From: a virus
DNA length: 36,671 nt
Strand: one strand, 5' to 3'
Virus record (IMG/VR): IMGVR_UViG_3300036792_000065
Span: 1-36,671 of that record
Shown piece after piece: positions 12,370 through 27,000 of this stretch. The notes under the pieces were generated by a model. It saw nothing but the letters and a program-made list of their open reading frames with translations, searched no databases and had not been told where the DNA came from. The position numbers were made by a program, and so were the translations under genes. How positions within the stretch are numbered: position 1 is the stretch's first letter; every line of letters starts with the position of its first letter.

Positions 12370-12886
12370 TCGGAGCTCCTCCGTATCCTGATATAGGTGA
12401 CCAGGGAAACACGAACTCGCCGAAGTTGACACTGTTCGCTGCATATAGGTCCTCGAACGGAGACCTAACATGTAGAGCACGAGTACGTAGCCACGAGATC
12501 CTAGACAGTGACTTACGAACTAGTGGCCCGATCATCAACGCATTGGGGTTCTGCAGCTTAATAGGTGCACGCATAGTCTGAATGGAATCTACGTCCAGCC
12601 GCGTGTATAGGTCGGGCTGTTGCTGAATCCAGAGCGTCTGATAAACAACGGCGAGCTTCAGATAGTACACATCCGTAGCTCCCACGTTTTCATACCAGGC
12701 GTACGTAATCACGGTGCCCGAACTCGGATCGGTCCATTCGAACGTGTATGGACGACCAGTAAAGAGATCGATAATAGAACCTGCGAACTGCACTTGAGCA
12801 TCGGTAACCGTCTGCCCTGTAATGTTCAGCACATCTGCTGCCGTAGCCCAAGTATTAGTTACGTTAGGCGTCGCCATAGGTCTCAT
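12353..12886 (-). CDS. Head-tail connector protein (gp6-like adaptor)
   Basis: A 177-residue protein with ATG at 12886 (AAGGGG close upstream) or 12877. The sequence NTWATAADVLNITGQTVTD begins a helical adaptor fold: AQVQFAGSIIDLFTGRPY at about 33-50, YYLKLAVVYQTLWIQQQPDL near 72-91, and SIQTMRAPIKLQNPNALMIG. These are standard phrases of actinophage adaptor proteins that bind the portal ring. It overlaps the fibre gene by 23 bases. Confidence 0.78.
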   Translation of the reverse strand: MRPMATPNVTNTWATAADVLNITGQTVTDAQVQFAGSIIDLFTGRPYTFEWTDPSSGTVITYAWYENVGATDVYYLKLAVVYQTLWIQQQPDLYTRLDVDSIQTMRAPIKLQNPNALMIGPLVRKSLSRISWLRTRALHVRSPFEDLYAANSVNFGEFVFPWSPISGYGGAPSGPDY

Positions 12887-15704
12887 CCGCCCCTTCTAGG
12901 CCAGTCTTATGAATAGTACCTGCCCGCTGTCGAGCTTCCTTCAATTGCCTACGACGACCCTGCCTAGTCTTCCTGGCCTCTAGGTAGCCTGAGACATGAG
13001 CGTCTCCAGGTCCTAGCCTTGGACGCTGTACTGTGCCTTGCAACGCTAGCACTGGTTCTGGAATACGGATTGACTCCTGAGGCGGAAACTTGAAGTTCAA
13101 GGCATGATCACGGAACCTGCCTTCGAGCCCCATCCCCCCGAAGCCTAGCCAAATTAGCAACGTTCCATCATGTACCCGTGCTGCATTAATTTGACCGCTC
13201 AATGCCGGCAACACGATTACGAGAGATCCTGTAATCGTCTGCTGAGCAAGACCCGCAATCAGAGTGGAAGGTTTAGGCAGAACTAGATTAAACGGTCCTC
13301 GCTCAGCATTATAGCGAGCAGTTAGCACAAGCCTAGGAGCAGGCAGAACGATGTTAAACGGACCGCTCTCAGTGAACTGAACAGTTCCCGACAGATTCGT
13401 TGTTAGCTGCGGGAGCGTTACGTTAAACGTACCCGCCTCTTGCAGCCGAACTCCCGGAGGTAGCCATATAACAAACGGGCCGCTAATAGTGGTCGAAAGG
13501 ATAGCACCGGATAGACTCGTCGTCAAGGTCGGCAATACTATTGTATTAGACGGTCCAAGCGGCCCTGATTCAGTATGCTGAGGATGCCCGACTAGACTCG
13601 ACGTCAGCATCGGCAAAGTAATATTGAACGGTCCATGTTCAATAACCTTGCCCGTTAGACTTGACGTCAAAGTAGGCAACGTAATATTGAACGAGCCTGT
13701 TTCAGTATGCTGTGCTGTACCCGACAAACTCGATGTCAGCGTCGGCAACGTAATATTAAATGAACCATGCTCAACAACTTTAGCCGAAAGGCTTGAAGCT
13801 GGAATCAGCAATACAATATTGAACGAGCCAGATTCGCCGCCAGTTTTCGAGCCTACTAGCGAAACTGTCGGTACTGGCAGAACAATATTAAACGAGCCCG
13901 ACTCGGTATGCTGAGCTGTACCCGACAAACTCGATATCAGCGTCGGCAACGTAGTATTGAACGTACCGTGCTCATGAATAAGCTTTGCGGCTAGTGAAAC
14001 CGTCGGTACTGGAAGCGTGAGATTGAATGAGCCAGATTCAGTATGCTGTGCTGAACCAGTTAGTGCTGTCGTGGGAACTGGGAGCGCAATATTAAAGGTG
14101 CCGTGCTCATGGATAAGCTTGGCACTCAACGAAGCTGTTAGAGTCGGAAGCGTGATATTAAACGCGCCAGACTCTGTATGTTGTGCTGTTCCGCTCAATG
14201 ATGTAGTCGGAACAGACAACGTAATATTAAACGCGCCAGATTCAGTCTGCTGTGCCGTCCCGCTCAATGATGTAGTCGGAGCAGGCAACGTAATCGCGAA
14301 TGTGCCGCTCTCAGTGCCTCCACCGCCACCTGTCAACTTGAATGCGACAAGGATTACTCCCCAGGCTTCGCCGCCGCTGCTGGTTACCGAGAACGTGCCT
14401 GTTTCGGTTCCCCCGGTGGAGTTCTTGTAGGCGAACCCAATGTTGGCGTCACTATTGCCATTAGGCGTGCCAGTCACAGTCGTGTACCCGGCCGGGGCCG
14501 TCCAGGTAGAGCCGGAGTCGCCGTCGTCGAATTCGATGTTAACCAGGAACTCGTTCGCGACTGTGCTGACGTACGCCGGTACCGTAGGGCTGGACGTGCC
14601 TCCACCGCTCTTAACACCGCTAAACGCCCCAGCTGTCCCGTCCAGGCAGGCCGTGGTATTCCCGGCGAGCAGCCCGGCTACTTCCAGGATGGTAACCGCA
14701 GCCCCGTTGCTCGCTGCGCCGGTTACCGTGATCGTCGGCTTAGTTCCGACATCACCCGCAGGGGTATCGAGCGCGAACAAGTAGAAGTTCGACAGGTCAG
14801 TCGACGTGGGACCGGTATGCACGAGCTGGGTAAAGCTGTTCGTGCCGTCCGAGACAGTAACCGCGCCCGTGTTGTTAGTCGCGATGCCAACTGCGGCGAT
14901 GAGCTTGGTACCCGAGGACAAGTTCGACGGGTAAACCGCCGAGAGAGTAGCCCCAGCGCTAGTGTTTCCGGCTGACTGGAGGACTGACCAGGAGGTTTCC
15001 TTGAGCAGAACCTGATAAACGTTACACTGTGTATTGTTGACCGAAGCTGGGTTAACAGATTCCGAGCCTGGTGCAATACTGCCCGGTCCCTGACCTGTTA
15101 GAGACCCGCCGCCAGCAAAACTAGCGTGACGAACGCTCGCACCTGTATAAGCACTAGAACCGACATAAGCTGTATAAGAGCCAGGTGTAGTAGGCAGAGT
15201 CTGACTAATCGCAGACAACCCAGCAGTCTGTCCAAAAGCCAAGTTGATAATGACACTAATTTCGCCGCTGCCTACAGCGCTAGCTGCTGGCGGCGTATAT
15301 GTTCTACCTGCTGCCGTCGTGTTATTGCACGCAGTAGTGTCAACCGTGACATACTTTCCAGCAGCTGGAGTATACGCCAGCATAAACGCCGTAAACTGCT
15401 CGGCAGTTGCACCGCAAGAAAAGACCGGAGCAGTATCTCCGCTTTGGAAAGTTCTCCAGCCGATAGCTGTTGTTAGACCAGCAGTGTTAGAACTAAAATT
15501 AAATCCGTCTAGAGTGCCACCTGAATGCGTGACCGTAAGTCCTGCAGCATAGAATGCTGCAGTAAAGATTACCAGGTCTCCCACAGACGGCGCGGTAGAC
15601 CAGGTAAACGCAGGGGTTCCAGCGCCTGAAGTGTACGAAAATGTAACAGCCGTTTGAGTCGTAAATGACGGCGAGCAGGTACCATAGCCGCGCAGTGTAG
15701 CCAT
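12864..15704 (-). CDS. 946-residue beta-repeat fibre, likely head-attached
   Basis: This long protein is encoded between the capsid genes and the head-tail connector, an unusual place for a fibre. Residues 1-235 and 236-460 look like two related beta-sandwich domains (SVGDLVIFTAAFYAAG and SGTKLIAAVGIATNNTG share the same pattern). Residues 464-854 hold about 18 copies of a 21-23 residue repeat, consensus (E/H)SGxFNITLPxLTxSLSGT followed by AQHTE. The last 92 residues are basic and end in a helix (QGRRRQLKEARQRAG), perhaps the anchor. It may be a capsid fibre or spike binding host glycans. The domain at 236-460 is encoded with visibly richer G+C than the repeats. Confidence 0.72.
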   Translation of the reverse strand: MATLRGYGTCSPSFTTQTAVTFSYTSGAGTPAFTWSTAPSVGDLVIFTAAFYAAGLTVTHSGGTLDGFNFSSNTAGLTTAIGWRTFQSGDTAPVFSCGATAEQFTAFMLAYTPAAGKYVTVDTTACNNTTAAGRTYTPPAASAVGSGEISVIINLAFGQTAGLSAISQTLPTTPGSYTAYVGSSAYTGASVRHASFAGGGSLTGQGPGSIAPGSESVNPASVNNTQCNVYQVLLKETSWSVLQSAGNTSAGATLSAVYPSNLSSGTKLIAAVGIATNNTGAVTVSDGTNSFTQLVHTGPTSTDLSNFYLFALDTPAGDVGTKPTITVTGAASNGAAVTILEVAGLLAGNTTACLDGTAGAFSGVKSGGGTSSPTVPAYVSTVANEFLVNIEFDDGDSGSTWTAPAGYTTVTGTPNGNSDANIGFAYKNSTGGTETGTFSVTSSGGEAWGVILVAFKLTGGGGGTESGTFAITLPAPTTSLSGTAQQTESGAFNITLSVPTTSLSGTAQHTESGAFNITLPTLTASLSAKLIHEHGTFNIALPVPTTALTGSAQHTESGSFNLTLPVPTVSLAAKLIHEHGTFNTTLPTLISSLSGTAQHTESGSFNIVLPVPTVSLVGSKTGGESGSFNIVLLIPASSLSAKVVEHGSFNITLPTLTSSLSGTAQHTETGSFNITLPTLTSSLTGKVIEHGPFNITLPMLTSSLVGHPQHTESGPLGPSNTIVLPTLTTSLSGAILSTTISGPFVIWLPPGVRLQEAGTFNVTLPQLTTNLSGTVQFTESGPFNIVLPAPRLVLTARYNAERGPFNLVLPKPSTLIAGLAQQTITGSLVIVLPALSGQINAARVHDGTLLIWLGFGGMGLEGRFRDHALNFKFPPQESIRIPEPVLALQGTVQRPRLGPGDAHVSGYLEARKTRQGRRRQLKEARQRAGTIHKTGLEGADETYGDA
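13143..14315 (-). repeat. About 18 in-gene repeats of 63-70 bases
   Basis: The DNA encoding the beta repeats of the 946-residue fibre shows repeated blocks such as GTAATATTAAACG and CAGTATGCTG roughly every 66-69 bases. Alternate copies end in AQHTE-type or KLIHE/KVIE-type linkers, so an older two-repeat unit seems to have been amplified. Recombination between copies could change fibre length. Confidence 0.85.
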
Positions 15705-22802: not shown

Positions 22803-23069
22803 ATGGCTGAGCGTGTCGAGGGTGCCACAGAACCGCGTAGGAGGCGGTGGTACCCATGGCAGGAATGGACAGATGGATCCGTCTGGAGCGCTAAAAAAGA
22901 CAAGGACTTCAACTGCAGTCCTGCTAGCTTCCAGACTGCACTACATCTACGAGCTCGTCAGCAAGGTCTCAGCGTAGTTACAGGCAGCCCAGAGCCTGGA
23001 GTAGTCGAGTTCCAGTTCACTAAGAAGACAGAAGAGGAAGTAGTCGATGCCGACACCTCCGTCGAATAG
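22803..23069 (+). CDS. W..TDG..W small protein family, copy A
   Basis: An 88-residue, first gene of the early unit. Residues 16-72 carry the pattern WYPWQEWTDGSVWSAKKDKD, then SFQTALHLRARQQGLSV and VEFQF. The same layout occurs in the products of 24845-25072 (TDGSIWKAIQDEDF, SFRTLLRYQARKRNI, VVWFQF) and, more weakly, 27359-27580. Basic N-terminus (TEPRRRRW) and helix-strand order could suit nucleic-acid binding, but no named domain is recognised. Being first after the early promoter suggests a regulatory or host-takeover role (inference). Confidence 0.72.
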   Translation: MAERVEGATEPRRRRWYPWQEWTDGSVWSAKKDKDFNCSPASFQTALHLRARQQGLSVVTGSPEPGVVEFQFTKKTEEEVVDADTSVE

Positions 23070-23223: not shown

Positions 23224-24156
23224 GTGCCAGAACTAGATATCGATGAGCTCCCGGTACCTCCGCCTAGTAGCAAAGCTATCCAGAAACGCGCCCAGATGTT
23301 CCTAGAACAGCAGCTAGGTGATCAACGAGGCAAGCATGAGCTCATCGAAATGATTGCCGACGCGGAGTACTCGCTTCCAGCTCCGCAGTTGTATCCAGAC
23401 TTTCTAGCCATCGACTTCCACGCACCACGATATCGCATCGACCAGCTCTGGCCGTTCGGTGGAACTGTCTTGCTCGCAGCTAGATACAAGTCTGGCAAGA
23501 GCACTCTAAAGCTCAACCTCCTGCGCTGTCTAGCTCGCGACGAACCTTTTCTAGGACAGTCCGTTATTCCGATCGGTCCTGATGAAACTATCCTTGACGT
23601 TAATCTCGAGGTAGACGAGCGCACGCAACAGCACTACGCTAGGCCTTTCAATCTGCCTAGTAACTCTCTCGTCCTCAACCTGCGAGGTCAAGCCAAATCG
23701 TTCAATATCATTAGTGATACGATCCGCGGCCGCATTGCAACGATGCTTAAGGACTTCAATGTTAAGGTCCTCGTCGTCGACCCTCTAGGACCGCTCATTC
23801 GTGTGTTCAACCTGAACGAGAATAGCAACTCATCAGACGGAGGTGGAGCACTTGTCGAAGGATTCAACGAACTGGCCTACGAAGCTGGTGGTATCGACAT
23901 CCTCCTGGTTCACCATACGGGGCATAACGCTCAACGGAGGGCGCGAGGTGGTAGTGTTTTCGGAGACGCAGCCGACGCTCTCTGGTCGTATCGCATCGGA
24001 GGCGCAGGCCGAAGCGATGACGAGGAATATGAGGCTGATGAAAAGGGCGTTCGGTACTTCAGCGCCACAGGACGACTAGAGTCTGACATGCCTGAATTTC
24101 CAGTCTTCTTCGACGAACGAACGCATCATCTTTCAAGGACACCGGCGCTGCTATGA
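23224..24156 (+). CDS. RepA/DnaB-like RecA-fold ATPase
   Basis: A 310-residue replication ATPase of the RepA/AAA_25 type, starting GTG at 23224. The P-loop is AARYKSGKST at 85-94 (Ala instead of the first Gly, Lys92). Walker B is KVLVVDPLG at 181-189. The His-His of LLVHHTGHN at 228-235 and R-A-R-G-G-S-V-F at 239-246 are hallmarks of the hexameric RepA/KaiC-like group. The C-terminal strands YFSATGRLESDMPEFPVFF close the domain. It probably unwinds DNA at the phage origin together with the polymerase encoded at 25723-27000. The N-terminal 60 residues are helical, perhaps for hexamer contacts. Confidence 0.85.
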   Translation: MPELDIDELPVPPPSSKAIQKRAQMFLEQQLGDQRGKHELIEMIADAEYSLPAPQLYPDFLAIDFHAPRYRIDQLWPFGGTVLLAARYKSGKSTLKLNLLRCLARDEPFLGQSVIPIGPDETILDVNLEVDERTQQHYARPFNLPSNSLVLNLRGQAKSFNIISDTIRGRIATMLKDFNVKVLVVDPLGPLIRVFNLNENSNSSDGGGALVEGFNELAYEAGGIDILLVHHTGHNAQRRARGGSVFGDAADALWSYRIGGAGRSDDEEYEADEKGVRYFSATGRLESDMPEFPVFFDERTHHLSRTPALL

Positions 24157-24446
24157 ACTACCAAATCAGTCCTGTCTACCTAAATGGCCCGCTAAAAGAC
24201 CAAGAGCATCCGATCGAGAGAGGAGCGGGCGGCCTCGAGACGATCGACCCTAATACGAACAAGACCCACATTTATCAATTCAAGAAGTTCGGCTGGGCTT
24301 CAGGTAATACTGCTCTCTACATTTGGATCGCCTGGTGTGGTCCCGACGAGCCAACTGCAATGGCTATTGCCAAAGCGCTCATAAAGCCTGAACTTGTTAC
24401 AAAACTAATAAGTCCTCCAACTCCGAACATGCCAGGCATCCTATGA
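24153..24446 (+). CDS. 97-residue protein, unknown
   Basis: ATGA overlap with the ATPase gene. It starts MNYQISPVYLNGPLKDQEHP; the 'xGPLxDQEH' phrase near the start is like the GGPLDGQ motif of many small actinophage proteins. KTHIYQFKKFGWASGNTALY follows, and a Pro-rich tail (SPPTPNMPGIL). It might be a small alpha-beta protein. No function assigned. Confidence 0.68.
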   Translation: MNYQISPVYLNGPLKDQEHPIERGAGGLETIDPNTNKTHIYQFKKFGWASGNTALYIWIAWCGPDEPTAMAIAKALIKPELVTKLISPPTPNMPGIL

Positions 24447-24649
24447 TAACACCTGTCTATATACGTCACAGAGTCGGTCGGTGTCCAAGATGCAGCGGGC
24501 CGCTTCTTGATGCGGGGTGGACCGACGATCCTAACGGCTGGACTCACTCAGTTCCAGCATGTAATGGTCGCCCTATCAAGCCTACGCCGAATGCACTAGG
24601 CTACGGTCCTTGCTCGATGTACCTCACACGAACGGCGAGCATCGTATGA
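24443..24649 (+). CDS. Small zinc-binding protein, tandem copy 1
   Basis: A 68-residue protein starting MITPVYIRHRVGRCPRCSGP; the Cys pair C14-x2-C17 is followed by DAGWTDDPNGWTHSVP, a Cys at 40 and GPCSM near 57. The following gene product (24646-24843) matches it over the first 35 residues and again at PCSM, so the pair arose by tandem duplication. The Cys-x2-Cys plus later Cys/His suggests a zinc knuckle. ATGA overlaps on both sides show tight translation coupling. Confidence 0.72.
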   Translation: MITPVYIRHRVGRCPRCSGPLLDAGWTDDPNGWTHSVPACNGRPIKPTPNALGYGPCSMYLTRTASIV

Positions 24650-24843
24650 ACGGTATCCCTGTCTACATCAGGCACATAATAGGTTATTGTGCAATATGCG
24701 GAGCACCTATTCTCGACGCAGGCTGGACAGATGACCCGAATGGTTGGGCACATTCTATACCTGTACACCTACACGAAGGCACCTGGGGCTGGGGCCACCC
24801 GCTCCTCTTCGCTCCATGTTCTATGGCACTAAGCGCGAGATGA
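24646..24843 (+). CDS. Small zinc-binding protein, tandem copy 2
   Basis: 65 residues from the ATG at 24646, which overlaps the preceding TGA (ATGA). Longer starts inside copy 1 are less likely. It reads PVYIRHIIGYCAICGAPILD then AGWTDDPNGWAHSIPVHLHE, parallel to copy 1. The end has APCSMAL as in copy 1. C11-x2-C14 and two His provide possible zinc ligands. The divergence between copies is strongest between residues 36 and 55. Confidence 0.74.
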   Translation: MNGIPVYIRHIIGYCAICGAPILDAGWTDDPNGWAHSIPVHLHEGTWGWGHPLLFAPCSMALSAR

Positions 24844-24844
24844 T

Positions 24845-25072
24845 GTGGCTCCAAAGATCGGCCGCCCTTCTAAGTACGACTGGGAAACGCTAACAGACGG
24901 CAGTATCTGGAAAGCAATACAAGACGAAGACTTCGACGCTACTCCTAAGAGCTTCCGAACGCTACTACGTTACCAAGCGCGTAAACGAAATATACCGGTC
25001 AAGATCCACGTTCGTGGAAAAGTCGTTTGGTTTCAGTTCTCTAAGGCGGACTTAGGGTGGCGAGCTGGTTGA
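24845..25072 (+). CDS. W..TDG..W small protein family, copy B
   Basis: 75 residues from a GTG at 24845, two bases after the preceding stop. DWETLTDGSIWKAIQDEDFD, SFRTLLRYQARKRNIPVKI and VVWFQFSK align with copy A without large gaps. The basic first residues (APKIGRPSKYD) resemble an AT-hook-like GRP patch. Function unknown. Confidence 0.7.
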   Translation: MAPKIGRPSKYDWETLTDGSIWKAIQDEDFDATPKSFRTLLRYQARKRNIPVKIHVRGKVVWFQFSKADLGWRAG

Positions 25073-25497
25073 CCGTTAGTGATGCTGATTGGGTAGCACT
25101 CACAGCAAGATTCGCAGGTCTACGCGGAGGTAGGGTAGATGAGCGCGGCCGAGTAATATATCGGTCGGAAGAAGAAATGCGACGCATGTTCAACCTAGGA
25201 CTACCAAGCAGTCCATTGGGAGAGTCGGAAAGAGTCCGATATCGCACAATCGTCCGTGAAAGAGTTCGGGAAGTCGACGGAGACACCAAGTTCAATGACC
25301 CCTACTTCGAGCTCGAGTGGCTACGTGTTCAACGCGAAGACCCTAGTCTCCTAACTAATGCCGAAGAAAACCGCGACGTTCTATGGAATGCATTCTACGC
25401 ACGCGATACAATTAAACGGGGCGGCTGGCGCAGACTCTGGAGTCAGAAACTAGGTCGTCCAATGAGCCCGAATGAAGTAGACTACGGAGATACGTGA
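25057..25497 (+). CDS. 146-residue charged protein, unknown
   Basis: GTG start at 25057 overlaps copy B by 16 bases. The product is strongly charged (GRVDERGRVIYRSEEEMRRM, then ERVRYRTIVRERVREVDGD) with a C-terminal helix AFYARDTIKRGGWRRLWSQK. It lies between ATPase and polymerase genes, in the replication block. No known domain; a role in DNA metabolism is plausible by context only. Confidence 0.68.
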   Translation: MASWLTVSDADWVALTARFAGLRGGRVDERGRVIYRSEEEMRRMFNLGLPSSPLGESERVRYRTIVRERVREVDGDTKFNDPYFELEWLRVQREDPSLLTNAEENRDVLWNAFYARDTIKRGGWRRLWSQKLGRPMSPNEVDYGDT

Positions 25498-25739
25498 TGT
25501 CCGAATCTCTTAGACTCAAGGCCCTAAAGCGTCGCTGGAATCAATTCTGGTATCGCTGGGGTATCCTTTATATCGGCCACGTAGATGACGTCCGAAAGCT
25601 AACTCAGCACGGATACTTCTGCGGCTTCACGATCTTGAAGTCACACCGCGCCTATCTCATCATGCCACTGAACCGGCTCGCAGAGAAGCGATACGCCAAG
25701 AAAATCAAAGCTTGGGGCGGGCATGCAAAAGTTCGATAG
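25497..25739 (+). CDS. 80-residue basic protein, unknown
   Basis: ATG at 25497 forms TGATG with the preceding stop; an upstream in-frame GTG at 25494 would add one residue. Very basic and aromatic: LKALKRRWNQFWYRWGILYI, FCGFTILKSHRAYLIMPLNR, KKIKAWGGHAKVR. It overlaps the polymerase gene by 17 bases. It could be a polymerase accessory or DNA-binding protein, from charge and position only. Confidence 0.68.
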   Translation: MSESLRLKALKRRWNQFWYRWGILYIGHVDDVRKLTQHGYFCGFTILKSHRAYLIMPLNRLAEKRYAKKIKAWGGHAKVR

Positions 25740-27000
25740 CTGGGATGTCAGCGACGCTCCGAAGCCTTCTAAGCTTACTCCGGAAGCCAGAAAGAAGCTC
25801 GCCCGAGAACGCGAACTAGCCAAAAGACGTCACGTCTTCGTTCCGCTTACTACACACTTCGCAGACCTTGAAGGCACACAGGTCTGCTACGGAGACCTAC
25901 GAAAAGTAGCCAAACGTATCGCAGACACGTTTCAAGACAACAAGCAACGTATCATCTTCAGCGAAGGAATTCCGATACCTACATCTTGGGGCAAGGTATG
26001 TATGCATACCTACAAAGAAGGCACCCAAGTTACAGGTGGAGAACTGTGGTACCAAGTAGGGTCTAATCCTAAGAGGACTAACCACATCTTCGACGTTCGT
26101 CCTTTTTTCTTGCAGTCACGTGCAAAAACAGCGGCTCTATACGGAACTAATGATCCACCTACAATCATGGAACAGGCTCGAACAGAACTAGCCGAAGTCG
26201 GACTACGAGCATACCAGAACCGTTGGTTCCGAAATTCATCAATAGCCGACTTTCTATTTCACGAAATGAAGATCGACCTAGATCGTATACCGATAGTAAA
26301 ACATGGATTCGACTCTACAGCCGAAATCGGATCAGCAGCATGTGGATATATCCCAGGACCTATCCACGAATACGATCTAGTTAGTGCTTACGCCTCTACC
26401 ATGCTCGAATTTCCGCAGCTAGGCGAGTTCGCACAAGCACTAGATGATGCCCGTAAGAAACTAGAAGGAAAGCCTACCGCACGAATCCTGAAGGTGACTC
26501 AAAGTGTCTTGCCGGGAAAGTTTCTATCAGCCAAGCTACCAACGTTCCGTCCAGACTTGGGAACTTACATACGCGGAACGACACGAGCTCGGCTCATTGA
26601 TGCGATGCAAAGAACTGTCAAGAACTATGGTACTGTTTATCGATGGAACACTGACGGATTTTTCACCAACGTCGATATTTCTTCCGAGCTCGATATCGGA
26701 AACGCACTTGGTCAATGGAAGCATACGGTTCACGATTACCTCCTCATCGTCCAGACTAACATCTTCAAAACCGACAGTAAGGTTAGAGACTGCGGATTCA
26801 ACGTCGACTGGGACGCCGCAAGAGCTAACCCTCTAGAGGTTCGTGCAACAATACCAAACATCGACTGGACGACACTAGAACAAAAACTAGTTCCTAAGGT
26901 ACTCCGGTTCGACGGAGGCTATCATAACTGCAAACGAGACGGTTATGGATGTCGCGATGAGTATCACTACAAGCGAGAAGCCGTAGATCAGTGCTGGTAG
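25723..27000 (+). CDS. Compact divergent family-B DNA polymerase
   Basis: A 425-residue protein with family-B palm motifs in order. Motif A is EYDLVSAYAST with Asp218, Ser221, Tyr223 and Ser225. A motif-B-like stretch ILKVTQSVLPGKF lies at 255-267 (compare KxxxNSxYGKF). The helix GTYIRGTTRARLIDAM precedes motif C, YRWNTDGFF at 306-314, which has Asn309 and Asp311 in place of DTDS. Motifs A and C are only about 95 residues apart, so terminal-protein inserts (TPR1/2) are absent. The N-terminal part resembles a worn exonuclease domain (HIFDVRPFFLQSRAKTA, then GLRAYQNRWF) but lacks a clear DxE and the Asp of the YxxxD motif. It is probably the phage replicase. Confidence 0.72.
   Translation: MQKFDSWDVSDAPKPSKLTPEARKKLARERELAKRRHVFVPLTTHFADLEGTQVCYGDLRKVAKRIADTFQDNKQRIIFSEGIPIPTSWGKVCMHTYKEGTQVTGGELWYQVGSNPKRTNHIFDVRPFFLQSRAKTAALYGTNDPPTIMEQARTELAEVGLRAYQNRWFRNSSIADFLFHEMKIDLDRIPIVKHGFDSTAEIGSAACGYIPGPIHEYDLVSAYASTMLEFPQLGEFAQALDDARKKLEGKPTARILKVTQSVLPGKFLSAKLPTFRPDLGTYIRGTTRARLIDAMQRTVKNYGTVYRWNTDGFFTNVDISSELDIGNALGQWKHTVHDYLLIVQTNIFKTDSKVRDCGFNVDWDAARANPLEVRATIPNIDWTTLEQKLVPKVLRFDGGYHNCKRDGYGCRDEYHYKREAVDQCW

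Follow-up and report, generated by a model that had tools for sequence, protein, structure and literature searches.

Truncated family-A polymerases that are paired with helicases and prime DNA synthesis have been described several times: CCPol-MP (PMC7581432), the PolA-SSB primases (PMC10061031) and the TV-Pols (PMC2579912). In family B, UL8 is an inactivated polymerase (PolB) within a helicase-primase that retains one of three catalytic aspartates (PMC8187027), and piPolBs lack the first Asp of motif C and are still active (PMC7544198). The PolBs closest in sequence and fold to the gene described here are the replicases of 15–19 kb actinobacterial tectiviruses, namely Rhodococcus phage Toil (gp07) and Streptomyces phages Forthebois and WheeHeim.

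The window, by which we mean the whole 36.7-kb stretch of DNA that was analysed, is a piece of a tailed-phage genome. It contains an ORF that we term mini-PolB, with these features:

25723..27000, + strand: mini-PolB, an intact 425-aa ORF; a B-family polymerase by homology, fold and motif alignment, without TPR1 and without aligned exonuclease acids
25834..26334, + strand: exonuclease-derived domain, residues 38-204, with catalytic acids absent (alignment and model)
26089-26109, + strand: F123DVRPFF element inside the exonuclease-derived domain (alignment)
26368..26397, + strand: motif A, residues 216-225 (EYDLVSAYAS), with catalytic D218 at 26374-26376
26413..26520, + strand: two-helix fingers (231-246 and 251-266) with R244 and K257 (alignments and model; statistics of the segment alone are weak)
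26491-26523, + strand: altered motif B, KVTQSVLPGKF (alignments and model; statistics of the segment alone are weak)
26635..26667, + strand: motif C hairpin, residues 305-315, with RWNTDGF inside and catalytic D311 at 26653-26655

Four IMG/VR contigs (L001–L004) encode homologues that are 70–75% identical; three of these contigs are 78–79 kb long and have a gene order common to all from end to end. Judged from its sequence relationships, mini-PolB is a true, drastically shortened B-family polymerase, the very small family-B enzyme that an earlier note on this DNA had proposed. PHROG 11768, 'DNA polymerase', matched it at E 1.6e-6. Scored with a profile built from six PolBs of actinobacterial tectiviruses, it reached 42 bits, against at most 9 bits in 2000 shuffles, and profile-profile comparison with 19 Toil-like PolBs gave E 1.5e-14 over mini-PolB residues 48–405. 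Its closest annotated relative is the Toil PolB. The annotated start of that gene (L044:2213-4288, compared with KY817360 gp07) looks too late; the frame is open further 5', and this added stretch includes FLAVDGEG, the Exo I motif, shortly before the annotated GTG. There were zero matches of mini-PolB to Pfam, and a PDB sequence search with the five-sequence mini-PolB profile gave only chance matches to centrin. Several patterns tried against viral and genome contig collections yielded no additional members; a motif-B/C DNA pattern returned eight contigs, all unrelated, and a plasmid search gave no real match, with a single weak one at E 0.3.

An AlphaFold2 model was built from a 63-sequence alignment, comprising the five mini-PolB members and 58 PolBs taken from viral contigs. 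It has a pLDDT of 81.5 and a pTM of 0.78, with palm residues 208–360 mostly above 90; because the alignment includes PolBs, model and homology are only partly independent. The five close relatives alone gave a pLDDT of 34. An exonuclease-derived domain, palm, two-helix fingers and thumb are all seen in the model. The earlier note had allowed for a fold unlike the PolB palm; instead both D218 and D311 are placed in a phi29-like palm, and the best solved-structure match is phi29 polymerase itself (2pyj_A; Z 14.1, rmsd 4.0 Å over 332 residues), with other PolBs at Z 10–12. Toil PolB was the top match in a viral structure library. Two other arrangements were considered and rejected. A complete loss of the fingers, suggested by the first pairwise alignment, was dropped when deeper alignments and the model placed two-helix fingers with K257; a polymerase split over two genes was discarded, the exonuclease remnant, palm, fingers and thumb forming a single ORF.

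The catalytic core is unusually compact. From the motif A Asp to the motif C Asp there are 93 residues in all five members, close to the 95 or so estimated earlier, compared with 178–247 in the 58 viral PolBs. From motif A to the motif-B Lys the distance is 39 residues vs 119–150, and from motif B to C it is 54, where tectiviral PolBs have 50–54 at their short end. Missing are TPR1 and adjacent palm strands, a loss of ∼80 residues from the A-to-B interval and of ∼90 from the core overall. The modelled motif-A helix (222–227) leads nearly straight into the antiparallel fingers helices (231–246 and 251–266), and the absence of the TPR1 insert, claimed in the earlier note, is thereby borne out.

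In phi29 polymerase TPR1 binds the terminal protein. A protein-primed polymerase starting at genome ends, with a terminal protein such as the product of the 146-aa neighbour gene, might be imagined here, the nearest relatives being protein-primed PolBs of tectiviruses. However, mini-PolB has no TPR1, and no inverted terminal repeats were found in the terminal 1.5 kb of the relatives' contigs, whose ends may not be genome ends; we regard this reading as extremely improbable.

Motif A (EYD218LVSAY), QSVLPGKF (260–267) and motif C (RWN309TD311G) occur in the order originally described and are unchanged in all four relatives. Of the metal-binding aspartates, D218 aligns with Asp in 57 of 57 PolBs and D311 in 58 of 58. 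K257 falls in the motif-B Lys column (58/58) and K266 aligns with Lys in 57/58, R244 with Arg or Lys in 58/58 and R288 with Arg in 58/58; K257, G265, R288, T310, D311 and G330 are identical in all 63 aligned sequences. Motif B has been altered, from Kx3NSxYGK to Kx3SVLPGK: K257, G265 and K266 are retained, while Asn, Ser and Tyr have become Ser, Val and Pro, the Asn and Tyr each being present in 58/58 PolBs. The Pro of SLYP is Ala in mini-PolB. The least secure point of the assignment is the motif-B register. By itself the segment scores no better than shuffles; with collinearity enforced the register was matched by 9 of 1000 shuffles and an alternative register by 26 of 1000. Every multiple alignment, and also the model, gives the register used here.

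Because the motif-B Asn and Tyr and the SLYP Pro are replaced, catalysis could be lost or changed. This raises the prospect of a catalytically dead polymerase fold that serves a helicase as a scaffold or as a DNA-binding subunit, in the manner of herpesvirus UL8. All exonuclease acids (see below) are gone, as are two motif-B residues that are near-universal in PolBs, and UL8-type proteins occur among the structural matches of the model, but D218, D311, K257, R244 and R288 are all retained and no other part of the protein is as well conserved as the palm, so that we think such a role unlikely. The position of the first motif-C Asp is occupied by N309. The NTDG motif is thus present as the earlier note had it, but is less unusual than it might seem: Toil-type PolBs carry ETDG or ATDG. 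Since they have Glu or Ala there, and since active piPolBs lack this Asp, N309 is by analogy no sign of a dead enzyme.

The exonuclease domain is worn. The Asp and Glu of Exo I in PolBs align to a gap in mini-PolB, the Exo II Asp column has K, Q, Q, W and R in the five members, and Exo III falls within a deletion; F123DVRPFF aligns to the conserved PolB element IxDxxxFF. The alignments thus show that every exonuclease acid has been lost and the scaffold kept, in line with the earlier description, and on this basis we agree that the protein is probably non-proofreading. Such losses, with the altered active-site pocket, would also suit an active accessory polymerase, filling gaps or bypassing lesions in helicase-linked repair or recombination-dependent replication, with no part in priming. 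PolAlpha and PolZeta, exonuclease-inactivated PolBs, offer a parallel (PMC7544198), the large relatives already encode a replicase, and recombination genes (PDDEXK, AAA_24) are present. These lie in the other arm, however, whereas mini-PolB is linked to a helicase gene, and the absence of a primase (below) would remain unexplained; an accessory role of this kind seems doubtful to us.

In a tree of the palm, the mini-PolB family falls within the Toil-like clade, on a long stem of 2.3 substitutions per site. It is best explained as an offshoot of tectivirus-type (Toil-like) polymerases, acquired by ∼79-kb actinobacterial tailed phages. Comparison of the window with the relatives put nonsynonymous change in mini-PolB far below synonymous, and lowest in the palm (pN ∼0.10, pS 0.64–0.72). 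Purifying selection acts on the gene, and most strongly on the palm region; with far fewer nonsynonymous than synonymous changes it is functional rather than decaying.

The best terminase matches are to Streptomyces phages. Together with an SsgA homologue in one relative, these lead us to infer an actinomycete host. SsgA is a Streptomyces regulator of sporulation and cell division; the SsgA-family gene (relative G003, L015:11187-11606, Pfam E 1e-16) hints at host manipulation as well as host identity. The same relative carries QueE, QueD and FolE genes (L015:17994-18776 and L016:8511-9646), suggesting 7-deazaguanine modification of the phage DNA.

Upstream of mini-PolB lie the following genes:

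23224..24156, + strand: RepA-like ATPase/helicase, AAA_25, 310 aa (AAA_25 E 4e-19), 73–81% identical in relatives
24443..24649, + strand: CxxC..H..C protein, copy 1, a putative zinc module (zinc binding predicted from the motif)
24610..24843, + strand: CxxC..H..C protein, copy 2, likewise a putative zinc module
24845..25072, + strand: conserved 75-aa protein, paralogue of the protein at 22803-23069
25057..25497, + strand: conserved 146-aa protein, directly 5' of mini-PolB in relatives
25494..25739, + strand: 81-aa ORF, specific to the window at this position and overlapping the genes on both sides

The ATPase named as RepA-like in the earlier note is thus an AAA_25 protein, and its gene is in one operon with mini-PolB in all five genomes (the window and four relatives). 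The order is AAA_25, CxxC..H..C proteins, small conserved proteins, the 146-aa protein and then mini-PolB; in L001 and L002 the 146-aa gene ends in a stop codon that overlaps the start of mini-PolB. The two CxxC..H..C copies of the window are tandem and overlapping, where L001, L002 and L003 show one copy at the corresponding place. The paralogous small proteins at 22803-23069 and 24845-25072, with the pattern WTDGSxWxA..DEDF, sit either side of the AAA_25 gene, and both are found in L003 too. Elsewhere in the window, 12864-15704 encodes a 946-aa structural protein that is rich in tandem ESGxFNITLPxxTSSLSG-type repeats.

A UDG-family A polymerase (UDG-PolA) is encoded in all three relatives of 78–79 kb; that of the window phage presumably lies outside the 36.7-kb fragment. 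In relative G002 (L024, 12526-15960) UDG-PolA has an in-frame insert of ∼255 aa in its UDG domain; with ends like those of inteins (C..., HNC) and a LAGLIDADG-like motif, it is probably an intein. The earlier note had cast mini-PolB as a minimal replicase that works alongside the RepA-like ATPase. The PolB fold, catalytic aspartates and helicase neighbour would be in keeping with that, but with UDG-PolA present in the three large relatives, proofreading apparently lost and the motif-B Asn and Tyr replaced, the replicase role finds no support, and we consider it very improbable.

No primase was found by Prim-Pol and Toprim_2 searches of the three 78–79 kb relatives. Toprim_4 gave one match there, below cut-off and probably due to chance (G001:C1:13439-13573 (-), 12.8 bits, E 0.008), the sole sign of a TOPRIM domain. 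When 60 proteins of one relative were compared with PHROGs, primase-named families among the best 25 of 42 matched through the AAA_25 domain only, and the KimJongPhill primase-helicase found no match in the relatives, in a search run without a positive control. Zuko-type Streptomyces phages, which have a related terminase plus SNF2 helicase, PolA and AAA_24, encode an 802-aa primase-AAA_25 fusion; in Mycobacterium prophage McProf, Prim-Pol and AAA_25 are separate genes. Since related phages pair a primase with AAA_25 and the relatives have no detectable primase, mini-PolB occupies the place in which one would look for a primase.

From this gene context we infer priming. The reading we favour, though tentatively, is that mini-PolB is a PolB-derived primase or priming polymerase, which would make it a family-B equivalent of the CCPol-MP primases of family A. 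More speculatively, it may have taken the place of a tailed phage's AEP or TOPRIM primase, as part of a split primase-helicase with AAA_25. Under the scheme we propose, mini-PolB would still perform nucleotidyl transfer, without proofreading, acting with the AAA_25 helicase and possibly with the zinc-module-like and 146-aa proteins as partners; it would make primers, as a primase or short-primer polymerase, and the UDG-PolA replicase would extend them. Against this, a divergent primase or host DnaG could prime instead, and the contigs may be incomplete.

The mini-PolB family illustrates how small a portion of a B-family polymerase can be maintained by selection: its distance from motif A to C is roughly half what is seen in any collected relative (58 PolBs). 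If active, mini-PolB defines a minimal PolB core that would be useful in engineering, and as part of a split primase-helicase it would perhaps be the most compact PolB catalytic core known. If it primes, this would account for how these phages begin DNA synthesis, and a family-B path in primase evolution would join the TOPRIM, AEP, PolA-SSB and piPolB types.

Compared with known systems, mini-PolB is nearest to the actinobacterial tectivirus PolBs, with which it shares an xTDG motif C, YDxxSAY in motif A, IxDxxxFF, and LGxW after motif C. These differ in having TPR1-size inserts (at least 178 residues from A to C, vs 93), an intact KLxxNSxYGK, exonuclease motifs and a replicase role. At 13% identity, phi29 polymerase is more distant, with TPR1, TPR2, an active exonuclease, DTDS and NSLYG. 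The piPolB of pipolins resembles mini-PolB in the absence of the first motif-C Asp but is a full-size replicase (PMC7544198). UL8 is likewise PolB-derived, associated with a helicase and stripped of its exonuclease motifs; by contrast with mini-PolB, in which D218 and D311 are kept and invariant, it has lost most of its catalytic aspartates. As for CCPol-MP, the PolA-SSB primases and TV-Pols, the likeness is in a shortened polymerase whose operon also holds a helicase and small proteins, in elements that lack a classic primase. For mini-PolB, no MP-like partner with an OB fold was identified. CCPol-MP and PolA-SSB have a family A catalytic domain, with MP an OB fold, and their priming has been demonstrated, whereas mini-PolB has a PolB fold and, judging from its gene context, may prime.
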